From IMG/VR virus record IMGVR_UViG_3300017963_000173, positions 1 through 30,580 of that record: a stretch of 30,580 nt of DNA; one strand, given 5' to 3'. How positions within the stretch are numbered: the stretch's first letter is position 1; each line of letters starts with the position of its first letter. A program made the position numbers and the translations under genes. The notes under the pieces were generated by a model. The model had not been told where the DNA came from and searched no databases. It saw nothing but the letters and a program-made list of their open reading frames with translations. Shown here in pieces: positions 124-30,200 of this stretch. The DNA comes from a virus.

Positions 124-625
124 TAAATTCACTATCCCAGCATTAACTAGCCCTGATTCTACCAAATTTATTGGCGCGTTATCTATGATGGCAATTTCAT
201 CAATGGTAGGACCACTTAGACAGTTATCTAGAGGTGAAGAACCAGATTTAGACACAGGTACACTAATTAACGAAGCATTGACTAATTCGGCACTGCTTGG
301 TTGGCATTATGAGTTGGGCATGAAAGCTAACGCTTATTTAGATTTACCGTTTTTAAGGCCGTTGCAACCTGATAGATTTAAACGTAAATCTGGGGGTGCA
401 TTGTCGCTTGGTCCAGCTAGTGGATTATTAGATATGGCTTATAGCTTTATTAGTGCTGTCGCTAACAATGAAATGAACGAATCAGACGCACGTAAAGGCA
501 TGAGGCTGCTATTTGGCGGGACTTATAACTGGTACACAGCTAAATTATTTAATAATGCTTTAGAATCAATGGAGCTGCCAAAAAATAGATATGAAGCTAA
601 ACGGCAAAAAGAATTAGAGGAGTAA
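1..625 (+). CDS. Internal virion protein (gp16-like), C-terminal part
   Basis: This is the C-terminal end of the gene that starts at 27225. With the 123-base overlap removed, 27225-30457 plus 1-625 is one frame of 1286 codons (1285 residues). The GTG at 14 is an internal valine codon (about residue 1083), not a start. The part contains helical, Ala/Met-rich segments followed by a basic, Glu/Lys-rich end. Long proteins at this position in T7-like phages form the internal core and are ejected at infection to help DNA cross the envelope. That role is inferred from gene order, size and general resemblance. The stop at 623-625 is followed after four bases by the fibre gene, which suggests translational coupling. 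Confidence 0.8.
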   Translation, partial: INTDVRKSILLPDAFSKPLSLQNPVPSLLGQFLSYVFEASNKFTIPALTSPDSTKFIGALSMMAISSMVGPLRQLSRGEEPDLDTGTLINEALTNSALLGWHYELGMKANAYLDLPFLRPLQPDRFKRKSGGALSLGPASGLLDMAYSFISAVANNEMNESDARKGMRLLFGGTYNWYTAKLFNNALESMELPKNRYEAKRQKELEE

Positions 626-629
626 TTAA

Positions 630-1550
630 ATGGCTATACAAATTGGTGATATAACCCCAAGACAACAATATATTGCGACCGCTGGTCAAACAGTTTATAT
701 TTTGCCGTTTCCATTTTACGCTGATACGGATTTGTTGGTTTATTCTAGAGCGTCTGGCTCAAGTCCAAATGATGTTAATGATATTTTAACATTGAATGTT
801 GATTATACAGTTACAGGCGCAGGCTTGGCTAGTGGTGGCACTGTTACGTTAACTGCTGCCTCAACAGTTGGTGATATTGTCACTGTTATGCGCGATATGC
901 CAGAAGATAGAAGTAATTTATATATAAACACAGGTTCATTTACAACTGAAGCGGTAAACGCTGATTTTAACCGTGACGTTATGATGAACCAACAAAATGA
1001 ACTTGCTGCTAAAGGATTATCACCTAAGTATGACAATAATGCGGTTATTGGTTCTGGTGATTTAATACTTGATACATTATTGCCTGGCTACTCATGGAGA
1101 ATGAACGCAACTGGTACAAGAATTGAAGCTTATCTGCCAAGTTCTGGCGGCGGAGGCGGCGGAGGCGGCGGAGGCGGCGGCTCTGGCGATGATACTGCAA
1201 TTAAAGTTGATATATCGCAAAATTCACACGGCTTAAGTGTTGGTGATATTGTTAGAATTGATGGTAGTGGTAATTATGTAGTATCACAAGCAGATAGTGC
1301 TAGTAACGCTGAAGTGGTAGGGATTGTGTCGGCTGTATCAGGGGTCGATGATTTTACGCTGCAAATGGGGGGTGTATTAGCAGGGCTTGTGGGTTTAACC
1401 GCAGGCAGTATTTATTATTTGTCACCAAGTGCTGCTGGGGCTTATACTGTAACTAAGCCAACTACCGCAGGACAGGTGGTAAAAGCAGTATTTCAGGCAG
1501 CCTCAACAACGACTGCAATATGGTTAAATTATCTAGGAATATTAATATGA
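630..1550 (+). CDS. Tail fibre protein with T7 gp17-like N-terminal domain
   Basis: 306 residues, placed directly after the internal virion gene as in T7-like late operons. Residues 1 to about 135 resemble the T7 tail-fibre N-terminal domain that anchors fibres to the tail: a start of the type MAIQIGDITPRQQYIATAGQ, a YTVTGAG-GGTVTL segment and a VMRD segment. Residues 173-184 are twelve consecutive glycines encoded by a GGCGGCGGA repeat, probably a flexible hinge. Residues from about 190 to the end form a compact domain that is clearly repeated at the C-terminus of the protein at 17973. It probably contributes to receptor recognition. Start: ATG with GAGGAG six bases upstream. The stop overlaps the next start (ATATGATG). 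Confidence 0.8.
   Translation: MAIQIGDITPRQQYIATAGQTVYILPFPFYADTDLLVYSRASGSSPNDVNDILTLNVDYTVTGAGLASGGTVTLTAASTVGDIVTVMRDMPEDRSNLYINTGSFTTEAVNADFNRDVMMNQQNELAAKGLSPKYDNNAVIGSGDLILDTLLPGYSWRMNATGTRIEAYLPSSGGGGGGGGGGGGSGDDTAIKVDISQNSHGLSVGDIVRIDGSGNYVVSQADSASNAEVVGIVSAVSGVDDFTLQMGGVLAGLVGLTAGSIYYLSPSAAGAYTVTKPTTAGQVVKAVFQAASTTTAIWLNYLGILI
1146..1181 (+). repeat. GGCGGCGGA microsatellite encoding 12 Gly
   Basis: Three copies of GGCGGCGGA followed by GGCGGCGGC encode residues 173-184 of the fibre. It is purely G+C in a low-G+C genome and separates the tail-anchor domain from the C-terminal domain. Confidence 0.9.
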
Positions 1551-1675
1551 TGAAAAAAAAAGACGCATCAAACAAAGGAAGTAAACCAATGACAGGTGGC
1601 AAACCTCCAATGGTTAAATTGGCAAAAGCACCAAAACCTAAAGGTAAGGTTATGAAGCCTAAGGGCAAGAAATAA
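1547..1675 (+). CDS. Lys-rich 42-residue protein
   Basis: Small ORF starting at the ATG that overlaps the TGA stop of the fibre gene and ending in TAATG shared with the next gene. The product ([13 protein letters not shown] then [18 protein letters not shown]-type sequence) is very basic and rich in Lys, Pro and Gly, with no recognisable domain. The overlaps on both sides argue that it is translated. It could be a DNA-binding virion component; the function is unknown. Confidence 0.6.
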
Positions 1676-1818
1676 TGCCTTTAAAATCTGGAAAATCAAA
1701 AAAAGTTATTTCAGCTAATATTAAGACTGAAATAAAAGCGGGAAAGAATCCTAAAGTTGCTGCAGCAATAGCATATTCTAAAGCAGGAAAATCTAAACCA
1801 AAGAAGGGGAAAAAGTAA
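1675..1818 (+). CDS. Small basic phage protein, 47 residues
   Basis: The start is shared with the preceding stop (TAATG) and the stop abuts the ATG of the next gene. The sequence has the form [20 protein letters not shown], followed by a helix with an [13 protein letters not shown] segment. Short proteins of this pattern (PLK-GKS-K-ISxNIK, then AIAIAxxxAGKS) are common in phage late operons, but I know of no firm function. The lysine-rich character suggests nucleic-acid contact. Confidence 0.65.
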
Positions 1819-2121
1819 ATGGCATTTGATTTTAAATACTTAACTAGTGTACAACAGACTAACAATTTAGATAAAACTTTAAATGTTAAGGCTGGTATGG
1901 ACACTCAAGCAAGACCTCAAATGTGGTGTTACGATGCATCTAGTAATGGGGCAGATGACACTAAAGCCGAAACTGTAGCATCTGATTATTTTCTTAGTGC
2001 GTATGCTTACTTAAAAGCAGGGGATTTAGTTTATGTGTATGCATCAGATGGGTATCAAATGCTATATGTTACTGCATCCAGCAGCGTTACAGTTACAACA
2101 GCAGCAGGGTGGGCATCATAA
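1819..2121 (+). CDS. Virion-associated beta module protein, 100 residues
   Basis: Predominantly beta and Thr/Ser/Val-rich. Residues about 31-97 (WCYDASS, VASDYF, LKAGDLVYVYASDG, then a V-T-V strand) share a pattern with residues about 20-90 of the protein at 17973 and with the N-terminal half of the protein at 20840. I infer one small beta module reused in three late proteins. A role as a decoration or fibre-attachment unit is plausible but unproven. It starts immediately after the previous stop and ends in TAATG shared with the next gene. Confidence 0.7.
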   Translation: MAFDFKYLTSVQQTNNLDKTLNVKAGMDTQARPQMWCYDASSNGADDTKAETVASDYFLSAYAYLKAGDLVYVYASDGYQMLYVTASSSVTVTTAAGWAS

Positions 2122-2357
2122 TGCGTGACAAAAACACATTTATTATTGACCAAAAGCAACCCTATGGCGTTGTTAACCAATCAACCCCAATGGGCGGCCA
2201 GCCAACAGATTTAGGATTTATTAAAAAATCTTTAGGTTTAGAGACAACAATTACTAATCATGGATTTGATAGCGCACCCCCTAGTAATGCACAAAGCCCA
2301 ATGGCCAGAATGCAAGCTAAAGGCAGCGGTAATCCATTTGACCCAGTTAACAAATAG
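2121..2357 (+). CDS. Hypothetical late protein, 78 residues
   Basis: I chose the ATG at 2121, which overlaps the upstream TAA (TAATG), rather than the in-frame GTG at 2109 inside the preceding gene. The product is Gly/Pro/Asn-rich (MRDKNTFIIDQKQPYGVVNQ, then STPMGGQPTDLGFIKKS-type sequence) and probably largely disordered. No family recognised. Its position between fibre-associated genes and the lysozyme-like gene suggests a minor virion or assembly factor. Its stop codon overlaps the first base of a parS-like palindrome. Confidence 0.6.
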   Translation: MRDKNTFIIDQKQPYGVVNQSTPMGGQPTDLGFIKKSLGLETTITNHGFDSAPPSNAQSPMARMQAKGSGNPFDPVNK

Positions 2358-2370
2358 TTCCACGTGGAAC
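2357..2370. promoter_or_regulatory. parS-like palindrome GTTCCACGTGGAAC
   Basis: A perfect 14-bp palindrome in the 20-bp gap between two late genes. It fits the bacterial chromosomal parS core GTTYCACGTGRAAC bound by ParB. The flanks are A on the left and A on the right, so the usual outer T on the left is absent. No ParA or ParB gene is seen in the genome. Confidence 0.5.
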
Positions 2371-2377
2371 ATTAAAT

Positions 2378-2851
2378 ATGTTAAATAATAAGCAATTTAG
2401 AGAACTTATAGTAAAGCCATGTCTGCATGATTTAAATTATTGGTCTGAAGCAGCAGAGGAATTAATGGTTTTAACTTGTGCCACTGAGTCATTAGGTGGC
2501 ACATATATTAAACAGGTAGAAGGCCCTGCGCTTGGAATCTACCAAATGGAACCTGTAACTTATCATGATATTTGGGCAAGTTATATATCGAAAAAATCGC
2601 ACTTTGCGTACATTATTTTGCAAAATGTCGGTGTTGCGTACATGCCACCCCCAGAATTTATGATATATAATTTAAAGCTTGCAACTTACATGGCAAGACT
2701 TTGTTATTTGCGTGTGCCTGAAAAGCTGCCAGAGGCTAATGATATTAAAGGTTTAGCTGAGTATTGGAAAAAATATTACAATACTGAGCATGGAGCTGGC
2801 ACGGTGGATAAGGCAGTTAAACATTACAATAGGTTCATTGGTAAAAGATAA
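2378..2851 (+). CDS. Lysozyme/transglycosylase-like protein (putative endolysin)
   Basis: 157 residues. The segment around residues 33-59 has a candidate catalytic Glu (E37 in CATESLGG) followed by GPALGIYQMEP, the arrangement seen in SLT/lysozyme-like peptidoglycan hydrolases. The C-terminal helices (YLRVPEKLP, YWKKYYNTEHGAGTV) match what I recall of phage members of this group. It probably cleaves glycan strands during lysis or entry. There is no signal peptide or membrane segment, so release would need a holin, or it is carried in the virion. The internal virion protein from 27225 shows no obvious N-terminal SLT domain, so this gene may supply that activity. The start is supported by GGA in the palindrome about 10 bases upstream; the stop overlaps the terminase start region. 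Confidence 0.65.
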   Translation: MLNNKQFRELIVKPCLHDLNYWSEAAEELMVLTCATESLGGTYIKQVEGPALGIYQMEPVTYHDIWASYISKKSHFAYIILQNVGVAYMPPPEFMIYNLKLATYMARLCYLRVPEKLPEANDIKGLAEYWKKYYNTEHGAGTVDKAVKHYNRFIGKR

Positions 2852-2853
2852 GT

Positions 2854-4176
2854 GTGCTATTAAAGCTACCACACAAATTTACACCAAGGCCATATCAATT
2901 AGAAGTATTAAAAGCTATTTTTATAGACGGCTATAAGAATATCAATTTATTAATGCATCGACGCGCAGGTAAAACTATTTTATTGGTCAACATTATTACA
3001 ATGCTTGCGGTGGAAAAGCCTGCCCTTTATATTTGTTTGCTGCCTCAAACTAACCAAGCTAGGCGCGTTATTTGGGAAGGGCGCGGTAAAGACGGAATAA
3101 AGTTTTTAGACAGAATACCTCAAGAATTAATAGCTAAAAAAAACAATGCTAGCATGAATATTGAGTTAATAAATGGCAGTATAATTGCATTTGTTGGCTC
3201 TAATAATTTTGACGCATTAGTTGGGATTGGCGCGCGAGCAATTATTTACGATGAATATTCACTTCAAAATCCATTGGCTAGAGAGTTCTTAAGTCCTGTA
3301 TTGGTGGAATCTGAAGGCATAGAGATATTAGTTGGAACACCACGTGGCCATAATCATGCTTATGACGCATATAATACAGCGTTAAATAATGATGAATGGT
3401 TTTTAAGACGTTTAACTGTTGATGATACGTTTGATAATGATGGCAATCAAATTATCACCCCCAAAATGTTAGAGCGTGAAAGAGCTAACGGTAAAGATGA
3501 AGAAATTATACAGCAAGAATATTATTGCAGTTTTGATATTGGTAATCGTGGAGCTTACTATACACGAGAAATAGCTCAAGCTGAATATGACAACCGCATA
3601 ATAGACTTTCCAATTAGAAAAGATATTAGAGTTAATACGGCTTGGGATATCGGAGTATCTGACAGTACCACAATTGTATTTTTTTATCAGCAAGGCGATA
3701 AAATTTATTTTATTGATTACATTGAAGATAATAGCAAGGGGGTGGAAGATTACATTAAAGATATAGAAAATGTAAAAACCAGGATAGGATTTAGCAAATG
3801 GGGTTATCATTTTGCGCCACATGACATTAAAAATCGGGAATGGGGGTCTAGTGCTAGAAGCAGATTATCTATAGCAGCGTCACTTGGATTGCATTTTTTA
3901 ATTACGCCTAATGTATCAGTGCAAGATAGGATACAGGCTGGGCGTGCTTTTATGCGTGATTGTGTATTTCATAAAACTAATTGTAAACACCTTATTAGAT
4001 GTTTGCGTGAGTATATGCGTGAGTACAATGAAGTTACTAAGGTTTACGATTCAAAGCCATTACATAATTGGGCATGTCATGGAGCAGATGCGTTTACTTA
4101 TGCCGCTGTTGCTTGGCGTGATAAATTTCAAGATATACAGTTTAATTCGCCTAAACAATATAAAATTAATGTTTAA
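2854..4176 (+). CDS. terL: Terminase large subunit
   Basis: 440 residues; DNA-packaging motor with ATPase and nuclease domains. The Walker A-like motif is MHRRAGKT (G39, K40, T41). A hydrophobic strand with PQTNQARR follows, and Walker B is RAIIYDEY (D133, E134). The nuclease half shows TAWDIGVSDSTTIVFF with a likely metal-binding Asp, and near the end CHGADAFTYA with another. The frame has no ATG before the ATPase core, so GTG at 2854 is the likely start, three bases after the lysozyme stop. It would act with the portal (14423) and probably the small protein at 13410. The final 11 bases overlap the end of a convergent - strand gene. Confidence 0.92.
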   Translation: MLLKLPHKFTPRPYQLEVLKAIFIDGYKNINLLMHRRAGKTILLVNIITMLAVEKPALYICLLPQTNQARRVIWEGRGKDGIKFLDRIPQELIAKKNNASMNIELINGSIIAFVGSNNFDALVGIGARAIIYDEYSLQNPLAREFLSPVLVESEGIEILVGTPRGHNHAYDAYNTALNNDEWFLRRLTVDDTFDNDGNQIITPKMLERERANGKDEEIIQQEYYCSFDIGNRGAYYTREIAQAEYDNRIIDFPIRKDIRVNTAWDIGVSDSTTIVFFYQQGDKIYFIDYIEDNSKGVEDYIKDIENVKTRIGFSKWGYHFAPHDIKNREWGSSARSRLSIAASLGLHFLITPNVSVQDRIQAGRAFMRDCVFHKTNCKHLIRCLREYMREYNEVTKVYDSKPLHNWACHGADAFTYAAVAWRDKFQDIQFNSPKQYKINV

Positions 4177-4435
4177 ATCTATTATAATAATTATTTAATC
4201 CGTTGTATCGCTTTATCAATGCATTGCGTACAGCTTCTTGTATAAGCTCTGATGTCTTCCACTCACCTAATACCCAGGCATGCCATACCTCTAAAATCAA
4301 TAAAGCTAAAGTCGCATACATTATTTTTTCCTGCGCGCCAGGACGAACAGAAAAAATTAAAATTAAACACAATAGCGCAGTTCTAATACATGCAATTATA
4401 ACTTTTTGTAATAAATGTATCTTAATTTTTGTCAT
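4166..4435 (-). CDS. Two-helix small membrane protein (holin candidate)
   Basis: 89 residues if started at the ATG at 4435 (a second ATG lies two codons upstream at 4441). Residues about 11-31 and 38-57 are hydrophobic helices. The C-terminal tail is charged and amphipathic (WKTSELIQEAVRNALIKRYN). The start overlaps the end of the ribbon-helix-helix gene at 4422, so the two are probably co-transcribed. Size and topology fit a holin or other phage inner-membrane effector, but several similar small membrane proteins exist here and none can be assigned with certainty. The 3' end overlaps terL by 11 bases. Confidence 0.55.
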   Translation of the reverse strand: MTKIKIHLLQKVIIACIRTALLCLILIFSVRPGAQEKIMYATLALLILEVWHAWVLGEWKTSELIQEAVRNALIKRYNGLNNYYNRFKH

Positions 4436-4592
4436 CAGCATTTTTCACTAATCCCAAATCCTTTGCAATCAAATACCTTACATATGAACTACGGTTATGA
4501 CCTTCTGCTTCCGCTTTCTTATCTATTTTCTTCAAAATAGTATCTTTGATTCTGACCAATAAATGAGAGCTTTTTGGTTGTTGTTGGTTCAT
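4422..4592 (-). CDS. Ribbon-helix-helix (Arc/CopG-like) regulator, 56 residues
   Basis: Short ORF starting MNQQQPKSSHLLVRIKDTIL, then K-rich helix, GHNRSSYVRYLIAKDLG. The pattern of a short beta strand (HLLVRIKD), a first helix, a turn and a second helix beginning RSSYVRYLI is typical of ribbon-helix-helix DNA-binding proteins. AGGATATAAAA precedes the ATG. A promoter and an overlapping inverted repeat lie directly upstream (4606-4648), consistent with autoregulation. It forms a two-gene unit with the membrane protein at 4166. Confidence 0.7.
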   Translation of the reverse strand: MNQQQPKSSHLLVRIKDTILKKIDKKAEAEGHNRSSYVRYLIAKDLGLVKNADDKN

Positions 4593-4605
4593 TTTTATAT
4601 CCTTT

Positions 4606-4640
4606 GTTAATACACATTGAATATAACAATATGTGTTAAC
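4606..4640. promoter_or_regulatory. Inverted repeat operator candidate
   Basis: Arms GTTAATACACATTG (4606-4619) and CAATATGTGTTAAC (4627-4640) pair at 12 of 14 positions around a 7-base centre. The repeat covers the -10 element and most of the spacer of the promoter at 4620-4648 and lies 14 bases upstream of the ribbon-helix-helix gene start. Likely target of that protein. Confidence 0.55.
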
Positions 4641-4648
4641 AACATCAA
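4620..4648 (-). promoter_or_regulatory. Sigma70-like promoter for the 4592 operon
   Basis: On the - strand, TTGATG (4648-4643) and TATATT (4625-4620) are separated by exactly 17 bases. The start codon of the regulator is about 28 bases downstream of the -10 element. Confidence 0.55.
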
Positions 4649-5109
4649 TTATTTTCTATATAGTTTTTAATTATCTCAATAGCATCTAAATCACTATAAC
4701 AAATCTCAACTTTGTAATCTTGCGCTCTTAAAGATTTAATTACTTCACGCTGATGTGAGCTTAATTTTTCACCTGGCAATTTAAATTCTATAAATAATCC
4801 GTGATAGCCGCCTTTAGCAATAAAAAAGACCAGGTCAGGAACTCCAGCTAGCACCCCCATTTTTTTAAACAGTGCTGCTTCTCTAACGTCCCGTCTACCC
4901 CCATTTGGGGGGTGTGTGCAGAGTTTATTGTATTTTGGGTATTGGCATATGAACCACTGATATACCCTTATCTGCATCTGTCTTTCTAGCGATTTCCTTG
5001 CCATATTGTAAAAAAAGCCAGGGGTTGGAACTGGCTTAAGAGATTTTAACTGTGTGAGTACGGAGAGTACTTTATTAATATAGAACAATATATCTTTGTT
5101 ATACAACAT
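4645..5109 (-). CDS. VRR-NUC domain nuclease
   Basis: 154 residues from the ATG at 5109; an internal ATG at 5004 (MARKSLERQMQIRVYQW) begins the conserved part and may be the real start, since neither has a strong ribosome binding site. The core has GVPDLVFF (Asp), FIEFKLPG (Glu and Lys) and a later SSHQREVI helix, giving the PD-(D/E)XK arrangement of VRR-NUC nucleases. Phage members are generally thought to act on structured DNA such as replication or Holliday junctions. Alongside the ERF recombinase at 11445 it would resolve recombination intermediates before packaging. Confidence 0.8.
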   Translation of the reverse strand: MLYNKDILFYINKVLSVLTQLKSLKPVPTPGFFYNMARKSLERQMQIRVYQWFICQYPKYNKLCTHPPNGGRRDVREAALFKKMGVLAGVPDLVFFIAKGGYHGLFIEFKLPGEKLSSHQREVIKSLRAQDYKVEICYSDLDAIEIIKNYIENN

Positions 5110-5153
5110 GCTTTATGGTAATATGTCAGATAATTAAAATTAGGAGCATTACA

Positions 5154-5312
5154 ATGACAAAAAAAGCAACAGCAAAAAAGATACCAAACAAAGACTATAA
5201 TTTCCAAATGCCTGCATCTATGCATAAAAAATTAAAAGCAAAAGCTAAAAAGCTAAAAACAACAATGTCTATATTATTGCGTGAAAAGATAGCAGAAATA
5301 ATAAAAAAATAA
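5154..5312 (+). CDS. Small ribbon-helix-helix-like protein, 52 residues
   Basis: I chose the ATG at 5154 because TTAGGAGCATTACA precedes it; an earlier in-frame ATG at 5115 lacks such a site. The product starts MTKKATAKKIPNKDYNFQMP and continues with helices rich in Lys (LKAKAKKLKTTMSILLREKI). YNFQMP as a strand, then a helix, a turn at TTMS and a helix LLREKIAEI fit a ribbon-helix-helix DNA-binding fold. It is divergent from the nuclease gene (45 bases between starts), so it could control that intergenic region. Confidence 0.6.
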   Translation: MTKKATAKKIPNKDYNFQMPASMHKKLKAKAKKLKTTMSILLREKIAEIIKK

Positions 5313-5337
5313 AAAAAGCCCGCAGGATTAGGCGGGC
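5311..5337 (-). terminator. Rho-independent terminator for - strand
   Basis: GCCCGC (5318-5323) and GCGGGC (5332-5337) form a 6-bp stem with an 8-base loop. Seven A on the + strand at 5311-5317 give a U tract after the hairpin for leftward transcripts. It would end transcription of the - strand genes from 6652 down to 5373. Confidence 0.7.
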
Positions 5338-5372
5338 AATACTTACTATGGAACTTCTATAGTATAGCACAG

Positions 5373-5621
5373 CTATTTTGAGTCATCTTTTGCAATAACC
5401 ATTTGACCATATTTTGCATAATGATTATTAATAGCTTTTTTTAGCTGCCATGCAACAAGCACATTGTAAACAATTACTATGTTTGCAAAAATTATCTCAA
5501 ACTTTTGCATCTCAAAAAAATAAGACATCGCAGTTAATATTACATACCCAACAAACATTACAAATATTTTTATAGCTGCATTTGATGCGTCTAATATTAA
5601 CCTGCGATAACTATTTAACAT
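5373..5621 (-). CDS. Small membrane protein, 82 residues
   Basis: The start at 5621 (ATGTTAAATAG) overlaps the stop of the upstream gene by seven bases. Two hydrophobic helices (about residues 15-36 and 43-58) precede a charged tail ending KDDSK. The topology resembles holins or antiholins and membrane superinfection proteins; I cannot tell which. It is the last gene before the leftward terminator at 5311-5337. Confidence 0.55.
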   Translation of the reverse strand: MLNSYRRLILDASNAAIKIFVMFVGYVILTAMSYFFEMQKFEIIFANIVIVYNVLVAWQLKKAINNHYAKYGQMVIAKDDSK

Positions 5622-5809
5622 GATTTGAACAAAATTGGTGTACAGTGAACACAAAGCGTATAAAAAGCAATTAAAAACCATGCGTTAACTCTAACGGTTT
5701 TAAACATATGACTGCGATTAGCAACTGCTTGCTTATACGCTACCCCAATTATTGGTAACTCTATAACAAGATATATCAATAAAAATATTAACAGTGATTT
5801 ACTGTGCAA
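5615..5809 (-). CDS. Small membrane protein, 64 residues, TTG start
   Basis: The frame lacks an ATG; TTG at 5809 is preceded by GGTGA. The product begins MHSKSLLIFLLIYLVIELPI, a strong membrane helix, and has a second hydrophobic stretch near residues 43-55 with two Cys near the C-terminus. It lies between a 44-residue membrane peptide and the 82-residue membrane protein, overlapping the latter. Three consecutive tiny membrane proteins suggest a shared envelope-related job. Start uncertain. Confidence 0.45.
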   Translation of the reverse strand: MHSKSLLIFLLIYLVIELPIIGVAYKQAVANRSHMFKTVRVNAWFLIAFYTLCVHCTPILFKSC

Positions 5810-5822
5810 AGGGTCACCAAAT

Positions 5823-5957
5823 TTAAAAATGACTTAGTACATAGGTTATAAAATCTAACAGCTTGCTTTCTTTCCCTGTTTTCTTTTGATATATATAAGA
5901 CAAATATAAGCAGAAAAAAAATAAAAAAATACTAGCAAGAGTTAGATATATATTCAT
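5823..5957 (-). CDS. Single-pass membrane microprotein, 44 residues
   Basis: Reads MNIYLTLASIFLFFFCLYLS, then YIYQKKTGKESK and a short amphipathic end. One N-terminal transmembrane helix (residues 3-23) is followed by a cytoplasmic-type basic segment. The ATG at 5957 is close after the stop of the 155-residue gene at 5963 (5 bases). No family recognised. Confidence 0.5.
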   Translation of the reverse strand: MNIYLTLASIFLFFFCLYLSYIYQKKTGKESKLLDFITYVLSHF

Positions 5958-5962
5958 TATAA

Positions 5963-6430
5963 TTAAGGCTTTTTAGGCACGTAACGAATAGATTCTTTTA
6001 CACAGATGTTGTGATTTTTATTTATGTCTCGCACCGAGCCCATTGCTGCATTTTTCATAGCATTTATAACAATCTTTTGAGGTGGTTTACCTTGCGCAAA
6101 ATCCTTACAAGCGTTTATCGATGTACCTTTTTGCGCGCTAATCGCAGACATGACACTTTCGCGCCCCATACAACTTGAGTATTTAACAGGGTCTATAATT
6201 TCTCTTTGCGGTGTAAAAACCAACGGTGATTGATACTGATATTCATTTCTAGCATTAGAAAAACTAGTTGTAAGATTGCTATTTAATCTCTCAACATAGT
6301 TTGTGCGAGAGTTATCATTAACTCTTGAAGTGTCACCATTACTGCGACCACTGAAATTCAAACTTGGTGAAGAATTAAGAACATCACTTGGATTACTTAA
6401 ATCCTTGTTTCTTTTTTTAATTATTGGCAT
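5963..6430 (-). CDS. Hypothetical protein, 155 residues
   Basis: An Asn/Ser-rich, probably disordered N-terminal half (MPIIKKRNKDLSNPSDVL and on) is followed by a more structured C-terminal half with three Cys (SSCMGRESV, NACKDFAQG, HNICVKES). AGAGG is placed well before the ATG. The first residues resemble those of the next upstream protein (MPNIKDDK), though there is no convincing full-length homology. Function unknown. It belongs to the leftward operon 6652 to 5373. Confidence 0.6.
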   Translation of the reverse strand: MPIIKKRNKDLSNPSDVLNSSPSLNFSGRSNGDTSRVNDNSRTNYVERLNSNLTTSFSNARNEYQYQSPLVFTPQREIIDPVKYSSCMGRESVMSAISAQKGTSINACKDFAQGKPPQKIVINAMKNAAMGSVRDINKNHNICVKESIRYVPKKP

Positions 6431-6445
6431 TTGTATACCTCTTAT

Positions 6446-6652
6446 TTAAAATCTAATTGTAAAATTAAATCCGCCTGAAGTTCTGGAATTGCCAGACAAG
6501 TCATTTTGGAATTTCAAATATGGCCCTGCTGATACATCTTTGTTGCTGCTTAAATCTAATTTAACATTCGTTTCCATAGTTGTACTACTTGTTGGTCTTG
6601 AATCCACCTTTACGCTTGGCGCACTTTTTTTGTCATCTTTAATATTTGGCAT
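6446..6652 (-). CDS. Hypothetical protein, 68 residues, with OMP-like C-terminus
   Basis: A strong site (GGAGAG) precedes the ATG at 6652. The sequence is Ser/Asp/Lys-rich and ends SGGFNFTIRF. That ending alternates hydrophobic residues and finishes in Phe, as in the beta-signal of bacterial outer-membrane proteins recognised by the BAM complex. No signal peptide is present, so export is not evident. First gene of the leftward operon whose control region is the inverted repeat at 6682-6718. Confidence 0.6.
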   Translation of the reverse strand: MPNIKDDKKSAPSVKVDSRPTSSTTMETNVKLDLSSNKDVSAGPYLKFQNDLSGNSRTSGGFNFTIRF

Positions 6653-6681
6653 GATATACTCTCCTATATTTTTTTAAAAGT

Positions 6682-6718
6682 ACTTGCAAGATGGATTTTA
6701 CAACAAAATCTTGCAAGT
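6682..6718. promoter_or_regulatory. 11-bp inverted repeat between divergent genes
   Basis: ACTTGCAAGAT (6682-6692) and ATCTTGCAAGT (6708-6718) are perfect inverted copies separated by 15 bases. They sit between the leftward gene starting at 6652 and the rightward lipoprotein gene at 6766, where promoters for both must lie (weak + strand candidate TTTACA 6697-6702 with TGTTAT 6721-6726). Likely an operator serving both directions. Confidence 0.55.
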
Positions 6719-6765
6719 TATGTTATAGTATACAAAAGAGATACAAGATACAAGAGCAATATACA

Positions 6766-6924
6766 ATGAAAAAAATTATATTAATTACAGTGATTTTCTT
6801 AGCAGGTTGCGTTAATCACAAATGCGATGAGTCGATACAAGATAGATTAGATCGTGAGCGTATAGCAGACCCGCATTTGTATATTTGTGTAGCACGTGAT
6901 GGTTTTGATTGTAAAACTAAATGA
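6766..6924 (+). CDS. Small lipoprotein, 52 residues
   Basis: Starts MKKIILITVIFLAGCVNHKC: a basic N-terminus, a hydrophobic core and the lipobox LAGC, predicting lipid modification at Cys15 and about 38 mature residues containing three more Cys. It would sit in the envelope of an infected Gram-negative cell. It could be an outer-membrane spanin-type or superinfection-exclusion lipoprotein, but it is not proline-rich like classical Rz1. The stop overlaps the methyltransferase start (ATGA), so the two are translationally coupled. An in-frame upstream ATG at 6691 lies inside the operator and is unlikely. Confidence 0.65.
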   Translation: MKKIILITVIFLAGCVNHKCDESIQDRLDRERIADPHLYICVARDGFDCKTK

Positions 6925-9894: not shown

Positions 9895-9922
9895 TTAATA
9901 TTCCTCTTGACGATAAAGATTT

Positions 9923-9951
9923 GCCCGCCCCCTCGGCGGGCTTATTTTTTT
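9923..9951 (+). terminator. Strong hairpin with + strand U tract
   Basis: GCCCGCC (9923-9929) and GGCGGGC (9935-9941) form a perfect 7-bp G+C stem followed by TTATTTTTTT. It is a rho-independent terminator for rightward transcripts, yet the neighbouring genes run leftward. It would stop antisense transcription crossing the initiator gene. On the - strand it lies in the leader of the initiator mRNA. Confidence 0.65.
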
Positions 9952-9981
9952 AACGTTTAATTAAATAATTTAATTAGCGAA

Positions 9982-9990
9982 ATTGTATCA
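9982..9990 (-). promoter_or_regulatory. Extended -10 promoter candidate for the initiator
   Basis: The - strand reads TGATACAAT (9990-9982), an extended -10 element, about 90 bases upstream of the initiator start. It is adjacent to a perfect A/T palindrome (9958-9976, arms TAATTAAAT/ATTTAATTA) and to one GGGGGTG word (9995-10001). The -35 match is poor. Confidence 0.35.
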
Positions 9991-10020
9991 AAATCACCCC
10001 CAAAGATAAAGCGATCATAT

Positions 10021-10761: not shown

Positions 10762-10812
10762 GTTATTATTTTTATTAATTTGTGTTACAATAGATTAATT
10801 CCATGTATTCAG

Positions 10813-10848: not shown

Positions 10849-10855
10849 TATTTTG

Positions 10856-12134: not shown

Positions 12135-12142
12135 TGTATGCC

Positions 12143-20256: not shown

Positions 20257-20258
20257 TC

Positions 20259-20827: not shown

Positions 20828-20839
20828 GAGTAAAATTAA

Positions 20840-21550: not shown

Positions 21551-21567
21551 TTTAATGGGGGTGAAAT

Positions 21568-22164: not shown

Positions 22165-24370
22165 TGTTATTTTATCTGGTTTTTCATATGGCGAATTAGA
22201 CCCAAAGCTTGCGGCTCGGGTAGACTTTGCAGGTTATACACGCGGGGTTAAAACTGCCCAGAATGTATTATCAATTCCTCAAGGTGGCTTTCAAAATCGA
22301 TTTGGTACAAGTTATCGCGTAACTTCAAGTACTACAAATAAAAATTATGCAACCTTAGAATCTTTTACTTATGACGATAAAGCTATTTATAACTTACTGG
22401 TTGAAAACAATTCAATTAAAGTTTATTTAGAAAATACTTTAAATGCTACAGTTGTAACAACATACCCCGAAGAAATCGTCAAAGAATTATATTTTATTTT
22501 TGTTAATGAACGTGTAATTATTTTGCATCCTAATTATGTACCGCGCCAATTAATTAGAAGCGCAGCGGCTGCTAATGCGATTACGGGGGTGGATGCAACC
22601 AATGACTACATTAATATCACCAATGCTTTAACTGCTGGGGTTATTTATCCAGCTACTTTTACGACAGGTGGCACTCTGCCTGTATCTGACCCTAGTATTT
22701 TTGTTAACACAACTTATTACATAAGAGCTATTACAGCCACATCAGTTAGAGTTTATGCAACGCCAACCGATGCAGCTAGTGACACAAATTACTTTGATAT
22801 TACAGCGACAGGAACTGGCAATGTTATTGTGCAAAATAGTTGGGCTATTTCTGATATTCCTTTTTCTATTTATCCGTCTTACGACTTTGACGGGTTTGCC
22901 ACGTATTCTGCAAGTGGGTTTACTTTTACTGCTAGCGCAACAAGTGGTACTGTCGGCACACCAGTTACCATAACTGCGTCAGGTAATATATTTAGCGCGG
23001 CTTATGTTGGCGGGTTATTTGTTGGTAATGGCGGTATTTTAAGAATTACTGGCTATACTAATCCTACGACTATTACGGGTTACACGTATGAAGATTTTAC
23101 TAATACCTCAGCTTTCCCAGGCAGTGAATCATTTTTAGGTGAGCCTGCTTGGTCAGCCGCTAGAGGTTACCCAAGTTGCGGCACGTTTTTTCAAGAAAGA
23201 TTATTTTTAGGCGGCTCTCGCTCTATACCCAATGGTGTATGGGGAAGTACTATATTTAGCGTATTTGACTTTGATGATTCACAAAATCTAGATGATAATG
23301 CAATTAGTTATTATCCAGCATCTGGTGGTTCTAATGTTATTAAATCAATGCTAGCCTCTAAAACATTATTAATTTTTTCAAATAGCGGCAATTATTCAAC
23401 TACTTTAACCAGTGACCTACCTTTAACTCCGCAAACGTTTAGCTTGGTTGCGCAAAGCAAAGACGGGGTAAATGATGTTGTACCTGTTGAGATAGACAAT
23501 CAAATTTTATACGTTGATAAATCAGCTAACAATGTTAAATCTATGGCATGGGACATTGTCCAATCATCATATGTAAATACGAATATATCTTTGCCCTCAT
23601 CGCATTTAGTCCAAGACCCAATCGATATGGCCGTTTATTCAGAGCCAAATTATACAGATGGCTATTATTTATTAGTTGTTAATGAAGACGGCACTATGGC
23701 AATTTATAATTCATTGACTGAACAAGATATTAAAGGCTGGACTAAGGCTAATACTGGAGCGTCAGGATTAGTGCGCGATATTACAGCTAGCGAAAATCGT
23801 TGCTGGGTATTAGTTGAGCGTTTGATTAATGGCAATCAAGTATTATATGTTGAAGAAATAGATTTTACCGTTAGAGCAGATAGCGCAGTTACTTATGATT
23901 TAACTGCCCCATCTAATACATTAACTGGCCTTTCACACTTAGAAGGTGAAACAGTTCAAGTTTATGGTGATAGCATTTATCAAGGCGCGTTTACTGTATC
24001 TAGCGGTCAAATTACTATTGATAATGAAATATCAGAAGGCTTTGCGGGGTTACAGTATATTTGTTTAATTGAGCCATGGCCAATTAATTTAGACACACGC
24101 GAAGGTCCAACTTTATATCAGCTAACCCATATTAGGTCTATTCATATACATTATTATGAATCTTTAGGTATGACTTTCCAGGGCTATGATATTCCAACGC
24201 AAGAAATGCAACAAGTATTGCTTAATACTCCAGTGCCACCAGCCACGGGCGTTTATGAGTATACTTTAATGGAAGGGTGGGAATCTTTCGAGTACAATAT
24301 ACAGATTAAACAAGAATTACCGCAGCCAATGACGTTGCTTGGTATAGGATATGAGGTGGAATTGCCATGA
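22151..24370 (+). CDS. Tail tubular protein B-like / stabilisation protein
   Basis: 739 residues. The N-terminal pattern VILSGFSYGELDPKLAARVD, YTRGVKTAQNVLSIPQGGFQ, NRFGTSYRV is diagnostic of the gp12-like nozzle protein of podovirus tails. Further motifs are QERLFLGGSRSIPNGVWGST, QSKDGVNDVVPVEIDNQILY and GWTKANTGASGLVRDI. It forms the distal tube of the short tail on top of the gp11-like ring. Mostly beta, with a long variable insert at residues about 145-300. Start overlaps the gp11-like gene by 14 bases; end overlaps the next by four. Confidence 0.87.
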   Translation: MANVNVILSGFSYGELDPKLAARVDFAGYTRGVKTAQNVLSIPQGGFQNRFGTSYRVTSSTTNKNYATLESFTYDDKAIYNLLVENNSIKVYLENTLNATVVTTYPEEIVKELYFIFVNERVIILHPNYVPRQLIRSAAAANAITGVDATNDYINITNALTAGVIYPATFTTGGTLPVSDPSIFVNTTYYIRAITATSVRVYATPTDAASDTNYFDITATGTGNVIVQNSWAISDIPFSIYPSYDFDGFATYSASGFTFTASATSGTVGTPVTITASGNIFSAAYVGGLFVGNGGILRITGYTNPTTITGYTYEDFTNTSAFPGSESFLGEPAWSAARGYPSCGTFFQERLFLGGSRSIPNGVWGSTIFSVFDFDDSQNLDDNAISYYPASGGSNVIKSMLASKTLLIFSNSGNYSTTLTSDLPLTPQTFSLVAQSKDGVNDVVPVEIDNQILYVDKSANNVKSMAWDIVQSSYVNTNISLPSSHLVQDPIDMAVYSEPNYTDGYYLLVVNEDGTMAIYNSLTEQDIKGWTKANTGASGLVRDITASENRCWVLVERLINGNQVLYVEEIDFTVRADSAVTYDLTAPSNTLTGLSHLEGETVQVYGDSIYQGAFTVSSGQITIDNEISEGFAGLQYICLIEPWPINLDTREGPTLYQLTHIRSIHIHYYESLGMTFQGYDIPTQEMQQVLLNTPVPPATGVYEYTLMEGWESFEYNIQIKQELPQPMTLLGIGYEVELP

Positions 24371-24843
24371 TAGAATTTTTATTAATGGGCGCACAGGCAG
24401 CAGGAGCTATTACCGATATAATTGGCAAATCACAAGCTTATAAAACTGAAAAACTCGCAATAGGCATTGAACAAGAACAAATCAAAGCACGCATGGATCA
24501 AGAACGCCTAGTATTCCAAGAACAATCCTTAGCTGACCTTAGAAATTTAGAACAGACTCTGGCAAGCCAAAGGGCATTTGCTGCTGCAAGGGGGGTGAAT
24601 CCTGGCCAAGGCTCAGCATTAATGCAGATGCAGCGTAGTATAACTGAATTTAGAAATGACGAAATAGCGCGTAATCTATCCCAAATGTTTTTAACTCAGC
24701 AGAGAAGTACGCAACTTAGAGCTAAAGATTTAGAGCGTAAAAGCGCACGTGATAAATTTAGAATTGGATTATTTAAAACAGCATTTGAAAACATATCAAC
24801 CATGGGTAGTAGCGGTGGCTTGGGTAGCTTAACATTAAATTAA
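24367..24843 (+). CDS. Internal virion protein (gp14-like)
   Basis: 158 residues. A short hydrophobic N-terminus (MIEFLLMGAQAAGAITDIIG) is followed by long helices (IEQEQIKARMDQERLVFQEQ, LASQRAFAAARGVNPGQGSA). The segment LASQRAxFAARGVxxGxGSA is typical of small internal core proteins preceding gp15-like genes. In T7 the equivalent is ejected and forms a pore in the outer membrane. Start in ATGA with the tail tube gene. Confidence 0.72.
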   Translation: MIEFLLMGAQAAGAITDIIGKSQAYKTEKLAIGIEQEQIKARMDQERLVFQEQSLADLRNLEQTLASQRAFAAARGVNPGQGSALMQMQRSITEFRNDEIARNLSQMFLTQQRSTQLRAKDLERKSARDKFRIGLFKTAFENISTMGSSGGLGSLTLN

Positions 24844-24844
24844 T

Positions 24845-27232
24845 ATGGCAACAGAAATACCAGAATATAAAAGACGCAGACAAATCACCCCCGCCGCAGA
24901 CACAGTGGGAGCTAAAAGCGCAGTAGCAGGCAGCATTGATGCGTACAATGCGCTATCCGCCTTTGGTGCTACCGTCGCATCTAACGCAGGCCGGGAGCGC
25001 ATGGCAATGTCAGGCTATGAAGCAGGTTCTAAACCAGGCGCAAAATTAACAGGCGTCGCCGTCACTCCCCTCGATAAAACATATGAGCAAGCATTCTTAG
25101 AAAGCTCAAGTCAGACACTAGCCAACAACGCTAACCAATTCTTGAATGAATTAAATCTAACTTTTGCCAAAAACCCTAATCCAACGGCAGGCGATTTAGC
25201 AACCTATCAGTCTGAAGCAGCTAAAGGCCTTAGCAGTATAATTGATTCGTCTGACCCTAGAATTAAAAATCAGTTAAAAACCCAATTTAATCGTCAACTT
25301 GAATCTAATTTATATAATCAAGCGCAAAAAGTTAACCAAACTGATTTAAATAATTTAAAATCGATTTACGCTGAAGGCACAAGAAATAATTACAATGATA
25401 TATATAACAATTTCAGAGCTGGGCTTAATGTTAACGCAACCGAAGCATATCAAGCGCAAGTACAGAATTTAGAAGCTAATCGTTATTTAATTGGTGAAAA
25501 AGCATATAACGAAGGTATAGAAGCAGCCAAGCTTACGTATTTTGGTGCTAAGCATGAAGCAGAAATGTTAGATATTTATCAAAACCAGGGGCAAGCCGCC
25601 GCTAATAAATATCTGCAAGACTTCATGAAAAATAAACAAGTTGGTTTAGATGACGCTGACAAAGAAAATATTCTGCCAAGCTTGTACAACAGATTATCAC
25701 GCGAACAATCATTAAACAGCTTAAATGATAATTTATTGCTAGAACAGGCTAAGCGTGACGTTATGATGTCACCAAGCAATGTTTTATCTAGTGACCAACT
25801 TAGTTATTATCGTGAAAATTTATCCGATTTAGCATTTGAGCGATTGCAAAATTCGCAATTGCAACAATTGCAAGAAAACCAATTAGCAATTGGCGCGGCT
25901 AATTTTATGTTAGAAAATGCTGGTAACGCTCTAGCACTATCACAATTAACTGAAAATCAAAAAGATAAAGCTTACGAGTCTATAGTTAACCAACGCGCTG
26001 AGCAGCTAGAAAGACCTTTAACTTTAGAGGAAGAACGCGATATAGCTGCATCTTTTGACACGCCTATACCTGCTTTTAACAAAAGATTAAATGCTGCAAT
26101 TAATTCTATTAATCCTGAAATGGCGCATTTAGGAGCGCAAATTTATAACTCATTGCAAAGCACTAGACCTAGGGTGGATAATGCAGCAGCAACTCGCGCA
26201 ATGGCTATTGCTAAACAAACAGATGCAGGAGCAAGTCCATTAGATGCATATAAATATGTGTCTGAAAAAATGGACGGCGTAACTCCAACTGAGCAACAAG
26301 CGCGCAAGGCAATGTTTAATAGTTATTTAAAAGACTATAAAATAACTGATGGCAGGTATGAGAAGCAAAGGGAGTTTGTAGCTAAAAAACTAGGTTTCCC
26401 AACTGAAATGATGACAGGTAGCGCGCAATCTAGATTTATGAATGCTTTTGAGCGTGAATATGTTAGAGCTAATGATATAGATGTAGCTATAGAGCGTGCA
26501 ACTGAGGAAGTATTAAGAACTACTAGCATATCAAATGCCAATGGCATTCCAACTGTAATGGATTATGCGCCTGATAAAGTCGCGCCACTTGAAGTAGTTC
26601 AAGAGCAAATGCAAGCATCTTTAGATGATTATTTAGGTAATTTAAAATCTAGATTTAATGAAGATGATGCAATTGGGTTTTATTATGAAAAGGCAGAGCC
26701 TGCTAGTATAGATGAACAAACTAGATTGCAGTTTGGTTTAGATGAAGAATTAGCAGTTCAAGAATATCAAGCCGCTCAAAATGAACGCAATAAATTCAAA
26801 TATCATCGAATTAATCGCAATGGTGACAAAGTTACAGGTTATTTAATGATTCGCGCAGATGAGCAGACTGAAAGACGCGAGACACAAGAAATTATAAATA
26901 AAAACGGACAAAGAATAAATAAAGTCACCCCCCAGTCATATTCATGGATATTTGTGCCAGAAGATTTTAGCAACATATCTTTATTAACTGATGTTCGCGA
27001 TTTTTCAAATGCTAGATTTTATTTTAAATATGATGAATATGCAGATGAGCAAAGACAGTTAAATCAAGAGAAAATGCAAGCTGCTAAAAGATTTACTGAC
27101 TTAAGACGCGATACGTTAAATCAAATCAATAACAAATACTATTGGTTTAACCCGATTAAATGGGGTCAATTTTTAGACGTATATTTCTACCCTGAACGTT
27201 TCTTTAGCTCAAAGGATATACCTAATGACTGA
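24845..27232 (+). CDS. Internal virion protein (gp15-like)
   Basis: 795 residues, largely helical, rich in Gln, Asn, Ala and Glu, with no enzyme motif. The N-terminus (MATEIPEYKRRRQITPAADT) and LSAFGATVASNAGRERMAMS are of the kind seen in internal core proteins at this place. It begins right after the gp14-like stop and ends in ATGACTGA overlapping the gp16-like start. In T7-like phages this protein joins gp14 and gp16 in the ejected core complex that conducts DNA into the cell. The call rests on gene order, size and composition. Confidence 0.75.
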   Translation: MATEIPEYKRRRQITPAADTVGAKSAVAGSIDAYNALSAFGATVASNAGRERMAMSGYEAGSKPGAKLTGVAVTPLDKTYEQAFLESSSQTLANNANQFLNELNLTFAKNPNPTAGDLATYQSEAAKGLSSIIDSSDPRIKNQLKTQFNRQLESNLYNQAQKVNQTDLNNLKSIYAEGTRNNYNDIYNNFRAGLNVNATEAYQAQVQNLEANRYLIGEKAYNEGIEAAKLTYFGAKHEAEMLDIYQNQGQAAANKYLQDFMKNKQVGLDDADKENILPSLYNRLSREQSLNSLNDNLLLEQAKRDVMMSPSNVLSSDQLSYYRENLSDLAFERLQNSQLQQLQENQLAIGAANFMLENAGNALALSQLTENQKDKAYESIVNQRAEQLERPLTLEEERDIAASFDTPIPAFNKRLNAAINSINPEMAHLGAQIYNSLQSTRPRVDNAAATRAMAIAKQTDAGASPLDAYKYVSEKMDGVTPTEQQARKAMFNSYLKDYKITDGRYEKQREFVAKKLGFPTEMMTGSAQSRFMNAFEREYVRANDIDVAIERATEEVLRTTSISNANGIPTVMDYAPDKVAPLEVVQEQMQASLDDYLGNLKSRFNEDDAIGFYYEKAEPASIDEQTRLQFGLDEELAVQEYQAAQNERNKFKYHRINRNGDKVTGYLMIRADEQTERRETQEIINKNGQRINKVTPQSYSWIFVPEDFSNISLLTDVRDFSNARFYFKYDEYADEQRQLNQEKMQAAKRFTDLRRDTLNQINNKYYWFNPIKWGQFLDVYFYPERFFSSKDIPND

Positions 27233-30200
27233 TGAAACCAAAGATTTTGACCAACAGGTTGAAAAAAACACTGGAATTAATCCGACTCCAACACTAAATT
27301 TTTACCCTGATTTAGTGCTTCCCAATCAGAAACCACTTGGATTAATTCCAGCCTCTATTTATAGACCACAGTATAAAAAACCTCCTACATTTGGCGAGAC
27401 AGCAGCCGCAGCATTCCGTGAAGCAAACCCAGTTTATAATGCGGCTAAACTTGCAATTGGCTTATTTCGAGATAGGCTAACAGTTGAGGAAGGGTTTGAC
27501 CCAATTGCCGAAGGATTGCTTGATGATGTACCACCTGAGTATTACAGTACAATATTGCAATATGGTAATAGATTTGATGCATCCGAGGCGCGTAAAAATG
27601 TATTGCAGGAAATAGAAGATAAGCAAACATTAGAAAACTCTGGGTTTATTGCGCGTAATGTATCTTATTTTGGCGCAAACATTGCCGACCCAACTAATTT
27701 TATTCCGCTTACCGTCATGGCTAAATATGCCAATGTTTCCAAAGGCGCATGGATGGGGGCGATTGACACAGCTAAAACCATGGGGCCATTTTTTGCCATT
27801 CAAAATGCTGTTATTTATGGCGCCAAAGAAACTGAAGGCGTAGAAGAATGGGCAACCCAAACACTTATTGATTCATTTTTTGCGGCCTCTTTTGGGGGTG
27901 CTTTAGGCGCATATGCATCACGAAATTTAATTAAAAACACAGCTAATGCTAAAGCTTTTTTTAAAGCAATGCATAATGATGTCGATATCAAAATGCAGAT
28001 AGATAAAAGCGGCAAGTTTATTAAAAACAAAGCTGTGCCTATCCCAGGCTCTAATGTATCGGCCGCTACAGTTAATGAAATTCAACAAATACTAGATTCA
28101 GGCACTGTATCTTTTAAAGACTCTAAAACAATTAAAAATGTATTTGGCTCAGCAAGTCCAATTGTTAGAGGTGTTACTTCAGAATTTGAAACCGTGCAAA
28201 AACTAGTATCTGAGTTATACCCGCATACATTTGAATTAGCTGGCGGTAATCCTGATTTAATTCCAAACAATGCCGCGGCTACTGTAGTTAAATATTGGCG
28301 CGGATTAAATGAATCAGTATTAATTGATATACGCCAAGATTGGATGGACTCATTAGGATTAAGCGGGCCATTTAAAGGAACTCAGGCAGCTATTGGCTCT
28401 TGGTCTGGTAAGTTTCAAAGTTATGAACAGTATTCAGAAGCTGTGGCTAAATCATTTAGGCGTGGTTTCATTCCTATTGATGGCAATGAAATGGTAGCTA
28501 AATCAGCTAAAAAAATTGAAGAAAAAGTATTTAAGCCATTACTTAAAGAAATTAAACGTATCTACCCTGATTTTAAAGAAACGCAATTTACTAATATAAA
28601 TAATTATTTAATGCGTATTTATAATAAATCTAAAATATTAACTGACCCTGAAGGATTTATTAATACATTAGTTAATGAATTTACCAAAACTAATGAAAAA
28701 ATCAAAGTAATAAGACAGCCAATAGATAACCTTAATGTGCAATTAAAACAAACTCGTGCATATATAAAAGAACTGGAAAATCAAGCAGTTAGACCACGCG
28801 CAAAACGAGTTAGTGAAACTGAAAAAGAATTAAAGAAAATTAATGAGCAAATAGCCGCAGAGCAAACTAAAGCTAATAGTTTATTTGGGGGTGATAGCGC
28901 GCAAAAACGTGATTATCTAGACAGGGTATTAAATCCATTAACCGCCAAAGCTAAGCAATTAGAAGATGTTTTACGTAAATTTGATACTAAAGAAATAAAA
29001 CAATTTAGACAAGAATTATCACAGGCTAAAGAATCACGCAAAAACATTAAAGAGCAAATTTTAATTGAGCAGCGTAAAATCAATAAAATGATTGAGGATG
29101 GCGAAGTTGGGTTAGATATGCTGGATGGTAAACCTAACCTCACCCCCGAACAAATAAAACAAATTCGAGAAATAAACAAGCCTATTAGCGAGCTTGAAGC
29201 AGAGATTAAAGCAGCTAAAGACTCAAAAACTAAAGCTAAGCTTAAAGAAAAATTAAAACAAGAAAAAGCTAAATTAGAAAATAAAATTCTAAAAGGCGAA
29301 ATTCCAGAGAATTTATATTATTACACAGCTAAAGGGGCTAAATTATATAATCCTGATGCTATGCCTAACTTGCGAAAGGTGAGAGATAAACAAGAGATAT
29401 TAAATAGCGCACAAGCAACACGTGATACAATATTGCAATTAAACCCTGAGCAACTAACCGCAGAGACATTTGACCAGGTAATATCTGGTGGTAACAATCC
29501 ATTTAAAGCTAGAACACTACTAGTTAATGATGCGGCTATAGAAAATTATTTAGTTAATGATATTGAAGCTTTATCTAGTATTTACACGTCAAAAGTATCT
29601 AAACGCATATATTTAGATGACGTATTAAAACGTTATGGTTCAAATGCAACAGAAGGGATGGATGGTATTAATCGCTTTCTAAATGCTGAATATAAAGCCA
29701 AAGAGGCAGAAATATTAAAACAAAAGCCTAGTGATGCCAGAGCTAAAGAATTAAAGCGTTTAAAGAAATCATTAGATGACAATGTTAAATATCTTGGTGA
29801 TATGTATAAGACCTATCAAGGCACTTATGCTGACCGTGATAGTGGTCTGGCTCGAACTGCTGATAGCGTAAAAAAATTAAGCGTTTGGACAATGCTTGGT
29901 AATGTACCAATTTTGATGTTAACTGAATTTGCAACGCCACTATTTAATTACACATTTAATAGTTACATTAAGGATGGATTGGTTAACAGCGTTAAAAGAT
30001 TATCTAAGTTTTCTAAAAGCACAGATTCTGCTTATAGCCGCGGGTTATTCTCTGATGCCGCATTATGCACAAATAGATTTATTGGTAACAAGTTTCAAGC
30101 ATTAATGGGGTTTGGTAGTGAATATAATTACACCCCCAAAACAGGCATTGAGAAAACCATAGATTATTTGGCCGCCTTTTCGCAAAACGTTAGTGGTGCA

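Follow-up and report, generated by a model that had tools for sequence, protein, structure and literature searches.

What purpose could the seven-letter word GGGGGTG serve in the viral genome of IMG/VR record IMGVR_UViG_3300017963_000173, where it recurs on both strands far more often than base composition allows? The window, by which we mean the whole analysed stretch of 30,580 nucleotides (36.6% G+C), has identical ends, as the 123 bases at 1-123 are repeated at 30458-30580, which indicates a circle of 30,457 bp or a terminally redundant genome. Within these 30,457 bp the word occurs in 36 exact copies, 20 on the plus strand and 16 on the minus strand, a density of 1.18 per kb (1,182 per Mb). 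Our recount returned the same copy number, strand split and widest gap (3,239 bp, 18318 to 21557) as an earlier note on this DNA, and the roughly 50-fold excess over fewer than one expected copy claimed there was likewise borne out, with 0.68 copies expected from an order-1 Markov model (53-fold enrichment) and 1.13 from an order-2 model (32-fold). Even the order-3 and order-4 models, which already learn from the word, expect only 4.2 (8.6-fold) and 7.2 copies (5-fold). The copies, located as exact string matches and classed as sense or antisense by the gene calls of this analysis, are listed below with their strands.

Copy 1: 392..398, plus, sense, in the gene 27225..625 across the join
Copy 2: 1368..1374, plus, sense
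Copy 3: 2275..2281, minus, antisense
Copy 4: 2646..2652, minus, antisense
Copy 5: 3456..3462, minus, antisense, at ITP of TerL
Copy 6: 3738..3744, plus, sense, at KGV of TerL
Copy 7: 4852..4858, minus, sense
Copy 8: 4908..4914, plus, antisense
Copy 9: 6948..6954, plus, sense, C5-methyltransferase
Copy 10: 6986..6992, minus, antisense
Copy 11: 7552..7558, plus, sense
Copy 12: 9038..9044, plus, antisense
Copy 13: 9198..9204, plus, antisense
Copy 14: 9409..9415, minus, sense
Copy 15: 9995..10001, minus, intergenic
Copy 16: 11272..11278, plus, intergenic by the gene call used, overlapping the GTG start assumed for 11276-11455
Copy 17: 12316..12322, minus, sense
Copy 18: 12490..12496, plus, sense
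Copy 19: 12569..12575, plus, sense
Copy 20: 13518..13524, plus, sense
Copy 21: 14593..14599, plus, sense, portal
Copy 22: 14643..14649, minus, antisense, portal
Copy 23: 15772..15778, plus, sense, portal
Copy 24: 15983..15989, minus, antisense
Copy 25: 16167..16173, minus, antisense
Copy 26: 18318..18324, plus, sense
Copy 27: 21557..21563, plus, intergenic, Shine-Dalgarno position of the gene at 21568
Copy 28: 21764..21770, minus, antisense
Copy 29: 22585..22591, plus, sense
Copy 30: 24591..24597, plus, sense
Copy 31: 24886..24892, minus, antisense
Copy 32: 26926..26932, minus, antisense
Copy 33: 27894..27900, plus, sense
Copy 34: 28887..28893, plus, sense
Copy 35: 29141..29147, minus, antisense
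Copy 36: 30131..30137, minus, antisense

The word is sharply defined. Read backwards it occurs once, and its 21 one-letter neighbours sum to 20 copies against 19.7 (order-1) or 26.6 (order-2) expected. No flanking position within 20 bp of the 36 copies is informative (0.58 bits, none significant). The copies lie a mean of 846 bp apart with a spacing not distinguishable from random (coefficient of variation 0.86, P 0.25), and the three close inverted pairs that had earlier drawn attention are present but represent no excess, being the three gaps below 60 bp where 2.5 are expected; a regular or paired arrangement was thus rejected in favor of a random one. Relative to genes, 18 copies are sense, 15 antisense and three intergenic, with 1.2-1.5 intergenic copies expected.

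That selection acts on the DNA rather than on protein or mRNA had been proposed from the placement of the copies, and both synonymous shuffling and residue conservation agree. Shuffling that retains the proteins and codon usage yielded a mean of 1.7 and a maximum of 8 copies in 2,000 runs, compared with 33 in the real coding sequences (19-fold enrichment), so that the codon-matched control suggested in the earlier note does not reproduce a similar count. The word could be written at 101 places without altering the encoded proteins and is used at 33 of them, while nine control words with 54-100 such places each are used 0-1 times; the coding set has 34 CCC codons, and 15 of these fall inside GGGGGTG. 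Two copies in TerL illustrate the pattern. The ITP at copy 5 is common to three related contigs (L036, L078 and L227) but is coded ATCACCCCC in the window and by other codons in the relatives, and the KGV at copy 6 is coded AAGGGGGTG in the window, with GV shared by the same three relatives, which spell QGV or KGV in other codons. Across distant relatives the residues at word sites are conserved in 34.0% of comparisons (320/941) against 35.2% elsewhere (23,112/65,592), and in the two closest relatives conservation is somewhat higher at word sites (20/33 versus 1,197/2,502). From the similar conservation and the different codons of the relatives it follows that the word sits where the proteins permit it. 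These data support selection on DNA and not on protein or codon use: a protein motif is rejected by the ordinary conservation of word-site residues in distant relatives, a composition or codon effect by the Markov models and the synonymous shuffle, and a Shine-Dalgarno role fits only one or two copies (21557, perhaps 11272).

Two phages with words of established function provide a direct comparison. In phage P1 the Escherichia coli Chi sequence GCTGGTGG is the top 8-mer by z, with 50 copies (31 plus, 19 minus), an observed/expected ratio (O/E) of 11 under an order-2 model, one reversed copy and uninformative flanks (0.21 bits). GGGGGTG is similarly the top word of its length by z, dispersed over two strands and devoid of flank information, with a word to reversed-word ratio of 36:1 compared with 50:1 for P1 Chi. 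It is shorter, at 7 rather than 8 bp, and denser, the figure for P1 being 0.53 per kb, and P1 Chi has a known reader, RecBCD, in a known host. In Haemophilus phage HP1 the uptake sequence AAGTGCGGT leads the 9-mers, with 17 copies versus 0.3 expected and three reversed; it is also a sharp, dispersed word on both strands with a z close to that of the window (30 versus 33); unlike GGGGGTG, it has a 9-bp core, informative flanks (3.15 bits within 8 positions, three of them significant) and a known host word. The window therefore resembles P1 in its flanks, and both P1 and HP1 in magnitude. Spill-over into one-letter neighbours, absent in HP1 and present to some degree in P1, fails to separate Chi from uptake words. 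The Lactococcus/Streptococcus Chi GCGCGTG, read by RexAB (Table 3 of PMC5959072), is also a G-rich 7-mer ending in GTG and matches GGGGGTG at five of seven letters, but it is another word, present in four copies in the window, and established Chi or uptake words occur there 0-4 times each.

By analogy with these systems we favor the reading that GGGGGTG is a Chi-type site of a host enzyme of the RecBCD, AddAB (RexAB) or AdnAB class, and give it a probability of roughly one half. It is the best supported reading because the word is short (within the 5-8 bp of Chi sites), G-rich, non-palindromic, strongly over-represented in the phage, present on two strands and exact without a flanking consensus, as in P1, and because the phage encodes a recombinase and no recognised inhibitor. 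A host Chi-like site had been among the options preferred earlier; it stands as the best fit to a P1-like signature, without a clearly enriched host among the 895 genomes counted. The gene set on which this rests comprises 43 products, all of which were profile-searched against PHROGs (the product across the join in part only) and part of which were also searched against Pfam and NCBIfam. The relevant genes are as follows.

11445..12038, minus strand: ERF recombinase of the single-strand annealing type (PF04404, phrog_155), encoded by the phage itself
4645..5109, minus strand: VRR-NUC nuclease (PF08774)
6921-7898: C5-cytosine methyltransferase, from profile matches
12959-13384: RHH-like protein (PF21983 above cut-off)
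4422-4592 and 5115-5312: RHH-like proteins, weak matches
7864-9894: 676-residue protein with weak N-terminal HTH or DNA-binding matches only
10021-10761, minus strand: 246-residue protein with no family above cut-off
27225..625: internal virion protein of 1,285 residues, its gene spanning the join of the circle

The predicted portal/head-tail connector (PF12236), terminase, major head, tail and internal virion proteins place the virus among tailed phages of the podovirus kind. VRR-NUC could act as a resolvase in the pathway of ERF, and the 246-residue protein, which contains a weak HARP-like stretch below cut-off (E 0.085), may partner ERF in annealing. None of the 43 products was recognised as an integrase, primase, helicase, polymerase or RecBCD inhibitor, inhibitors of the Gam/Abc2 type included, and a single PHROG labelled DNA primase aligns solely with the methyltransferase domain of 6921-7898. 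A primase signal, another function suggested in the earlier note, is thus without support from the phage genes; a host primase reading GGGGGTG is possible.

For a Chi-type site we infer a host enzyme of the named class, its recognition of GGGGGTG and a benefit to the phage along the following lines. Free ends of phage DNA would arise at entry, from rolling-circle tails, through restriction cuts and during packaging, and an end-degrading helicase-nuclease of the host would unwind and degrade from such an end until it met a correctly oriented word, recognised as a short G-rich single-strand sequence. There degradation would halt and the 3' strand would be handed over to phage ERF or host RecA, by which concatemers could be rebuilt; copies every ~850 bp in both orientations would limit the loss from either end. 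The gene content is in keeping with reported phage biology, as phages with a recombinase and without a RecBCD inhibitor are described in passages of Bobay 2013 (PMC3784561) as carrying Chi above expectation. That the word itself is undescribed would be unsurprising given how few Chi-like words are known: sections of PMC8022716 count five species, plus candidates in 85-87 species, and state that no Chi was detected in most Proteobacteria, which probably use undetected words. GGGGGTG is absent from the identified Chi sequences of eight bacteria in Table 3 of PMC5959072 and from the five candidate motifs of PMC8022716, a comparison separate from the 75 supplementary words of that paper, and among the papers searched there was none in which GGGGGTG and Chi both stand as whole words. 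If GGGGGTG is indeed a Chi-type site, a phage word present at tens of times its expected count would be a more sensitive Chi detector than the host genome, as indicated by the O/E of 11 in P1 versus 2.3 in the E. coli genome (the latter from passages of PMC3784561). Scans of viral collections for sharp, dispersed, flankless words could then propose Chi words for hosts that have not been cultured, besides linking phages to hosts.

Several observations weigh against a Chi-type site. The enrichment lies far above the median Chi O/E of 2.3-3.1 given for lambdoid phages in the same passages, which also describe recombinase-plus, inhibitor-minus phages as only about as Chi-enriched as the E. coli core genome (PMC3784561). 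The one-letter neighbours of P1 Chi are mildly enriched (122 versus 60-87 expected) and those of the window are not. In phages of Lactococcus and Streptococcus thermophilus, GCGCGTG occurs 0-1 times in six of seven and four times in the seventh, DT1, so that, even where the host is AT-rich, its phages do not generally show Chi enrichment. The lack of an inhibitor is judged from profile searches, and proteins of this type are short and evolve quickly. The nearest relatives of the phage, described below, lack the enrichment, and the host genomes that the earlier note had proposed to consult did not reveal a source: with the word and the reversed word counted in 895 distinct genomes, and the tables read by eye, no host with clear GGGGGTG enrichment emerged. 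This survey took in 13 genomes reached via loci; the class of G001 added 368 (369 searched) and the order of G001 a further 57, the class of G008 added 141, the phyla of G004, G009 and G005 added 117, 49 and 118, respectively, and the order of G010 added 32. By title these centres are Methylococcaceae, Sneathiella, Bacteroidetes, Parachlamydiaceae, Coxiella-like and Clostridium.

The highest ratio of word to reversed word read in the survey tables was 3.4 (G393). From 20 higher-ratio genomes sampled, 18 gave letters, with G+C estimated roughly from 3 kb each; most of the 18 are GC-rich, and only G349 and G116 (O/E 1.7) are clearly above composition. The strongest is G349, with 552 copies per Mb, an O/E of 3.7 and a ratio of 2.3, and it or similar genomes could be the host. 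The host may otherwise lie outside the surveyed sets, or its own enrichment may be mild, as can be the case for Chi given the low O/E of the E. coli genome itself. As a separate observation, the G-rich word shows strong strand polarity in some chromosomes: in G407, G778 and G861, all GGGGGTG copies on contig C1, among the copies listed, share one strand.

An alternative that we consider unlikely is that the phage encodes the reader, the word being a genome-wide address for its own replication, condensation or packaging. Candidates for that reader are the HTH-containing 676-residue protein, one of the three RHH-like proteins, a partner of ERF/VRR-NUC, or a packaging protein. Such an address would account for the lack of a clearly enriched host and of any related phage clearly sharing the word, and there is room for it in the 676-residue and 246-residue proteins, neither of which has a firm family assignment, the former being without a relative in our viral scan. 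AlphaFold models of these two proteins are too poor for a fold search (mean pLDDT 34). Known replication or partition sites cluster instead of being spread randomly over a genome, and RHH proteins mostly bind palindromes or tandem sites, both of which argue against a reader of this kind. In its widest form, equally unlikely, GGGGGTG would be a lineage-private address that protects, condenses, primes or packages DNA and is read by an unassigned phage protein; to our knowledge a dispersed viral DNA code of this sort has not been described.

More doubtful is another double-strand signal, either a modification or self-recognition mark or the product of a mutational process favoring one word. The C5-cytosine methyltransferase at 6921-7898 makes a mark conceivable; targets of methyltransferases and restriction enzymes, however, are usually avoided in phages and not enriched, and a mutational bias should lift the one-letter neighbours too, which are at expectation.

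We attach a similarly low likelihood to the third function raised earlier, a DNA uptake word of a competent host, built up by biased uptake and recombination as in phages of Pasteurellaceae. In its favor, the HP1 word gives a signal of this statistical class, and the density in the window exceeds the ~750 per Mb at which, according to passages of PMC6776037, the Haemophilus influenzae type of uptake word saturates in hosts and prophages. Against it, uptake words known so far span 9-12 bp, longer than the 7 bp here, and the informative flanks of HP1 have no counterpart in the window despite twice the copies. No integrase was recognised, though small Arc/CopG-like repressors are encoded (PHROGs search), and none of the 895 genomes carries the word far above its reverse. 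Lastly, an origin by chance, from base composition or codon use, from ribosome-binding sites or as an assembly artefact is scarcely credible, since apart from the copies in Shine-Dalgarno position these causes are refuted by the shuffles, the strand balance and a second contig with all of its copies.

This second contig, the twin L012, is 99.95% identical to window 12151-30580 and 94.9% identical to window 1-454. It retains 21 of 21 copies, with none of 32 differences in 18,761 bp inside a word; only ~0.25 in-word differences would be expected, so this conservation adds little. The differences are unevenly placed, nine over 18.3 kb and 23 in the last 454 bases (L012 18308-18761 versus 1-454), and such abrupt divergence within one gene possibly reflects recombination between close strains. 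The name of L012 bears metagenome number 3300017971, which we take to be Salton Sea sediment. A portion of PMC7449369 credits David Valentine with that metagenome.

Relatives that fail to maintain the copies had been named in advance as a refuting outcome, and this applies in part, as beyond the twin none of those compared shows a clear signal. The nearest, L036 and L078, each share seven proteins with the window at 35-60% identity (except one short partial match of 84%), and the TerL of L227 is 54% identical to that of the window; on contigs of 9.6-13.8 kb, all three have one copy each. Podoviruses of the HTVC010P/MEP301 kind are more distant, with portals 26-31% identical, TerL ~32% identical to those of HTVC034P and HTVC035P, and a major head protein 35% identical to that of MEP301, and they too are without enrichment (one copy in MEP301 and none in Hodr, whole records). 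A near-mode search of the phage collection with bases 1-25000 gave no match at the nucleotide level, and relative scans seeded with the methyltransferase and the 676-residue protein confirmed no close relative. Among 187 phage, viral and genome-contig loci (17 of the last kind; L009-L195, 2.26 Mb) the copies number 174; the twin's loci L009 and L012 account for 36, and the other 185 loci hold 138, at most seven in one, versus ~272 expected from composition. A further 28 loci hold 34 copies, with a maximum of nine in a locus of 67.5% G+C where ten are expected, and 40 whole records hold 0-7 each. This distribution suggests an enrichment specific to this lineage, either gained there or lost in others.

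In one related record, L204/L116 of G723 (17.5 kb), which encodes an ERF relative (51%), GGGGGTG is the top 7-mer, with seven copies versus 1.04 expected; this sole hint of the word in a related record is weak after many tests. Six of the top words of other loci were examined; those of L050, L080, L094, L075 and L112 are mostly local or tandem repeats, and those of L068 have by eye the appearance of ribosome-binding sites. L050, which carries a terminase relative, contains two arrays of degenerate short repeats with AAGCGGCA (29 copies) at 4662-4846 and 5504-5745, probably encoding a repeat protein.

Finally, 150 sequences totalling 2.36 Mb, each of 9 kb or more and free of N (L009 and L205 omitted as duplicates), were scanned blind for words of 6-9 bp dispersed over two strands, and the best 40 rows were taken. 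GGGGGTG in the window ranked first (z 32.8) and the HP1 uptake sequence second (z 30.0), followed by a 9-mer of L162 (z 26.6), the twin, and then weaker words of few copies. Leaving aside words of few copies, only the virus, its twin and HP1 reach comparable strength among these best 40 rows, which suggests that phages carrying such words are rare. The L162 word, CACGAAAGG, is dispersed on both strands of a 9.3-kb sequence in six copies, where ~0.05 are expected, and is possibly another word of this kind.

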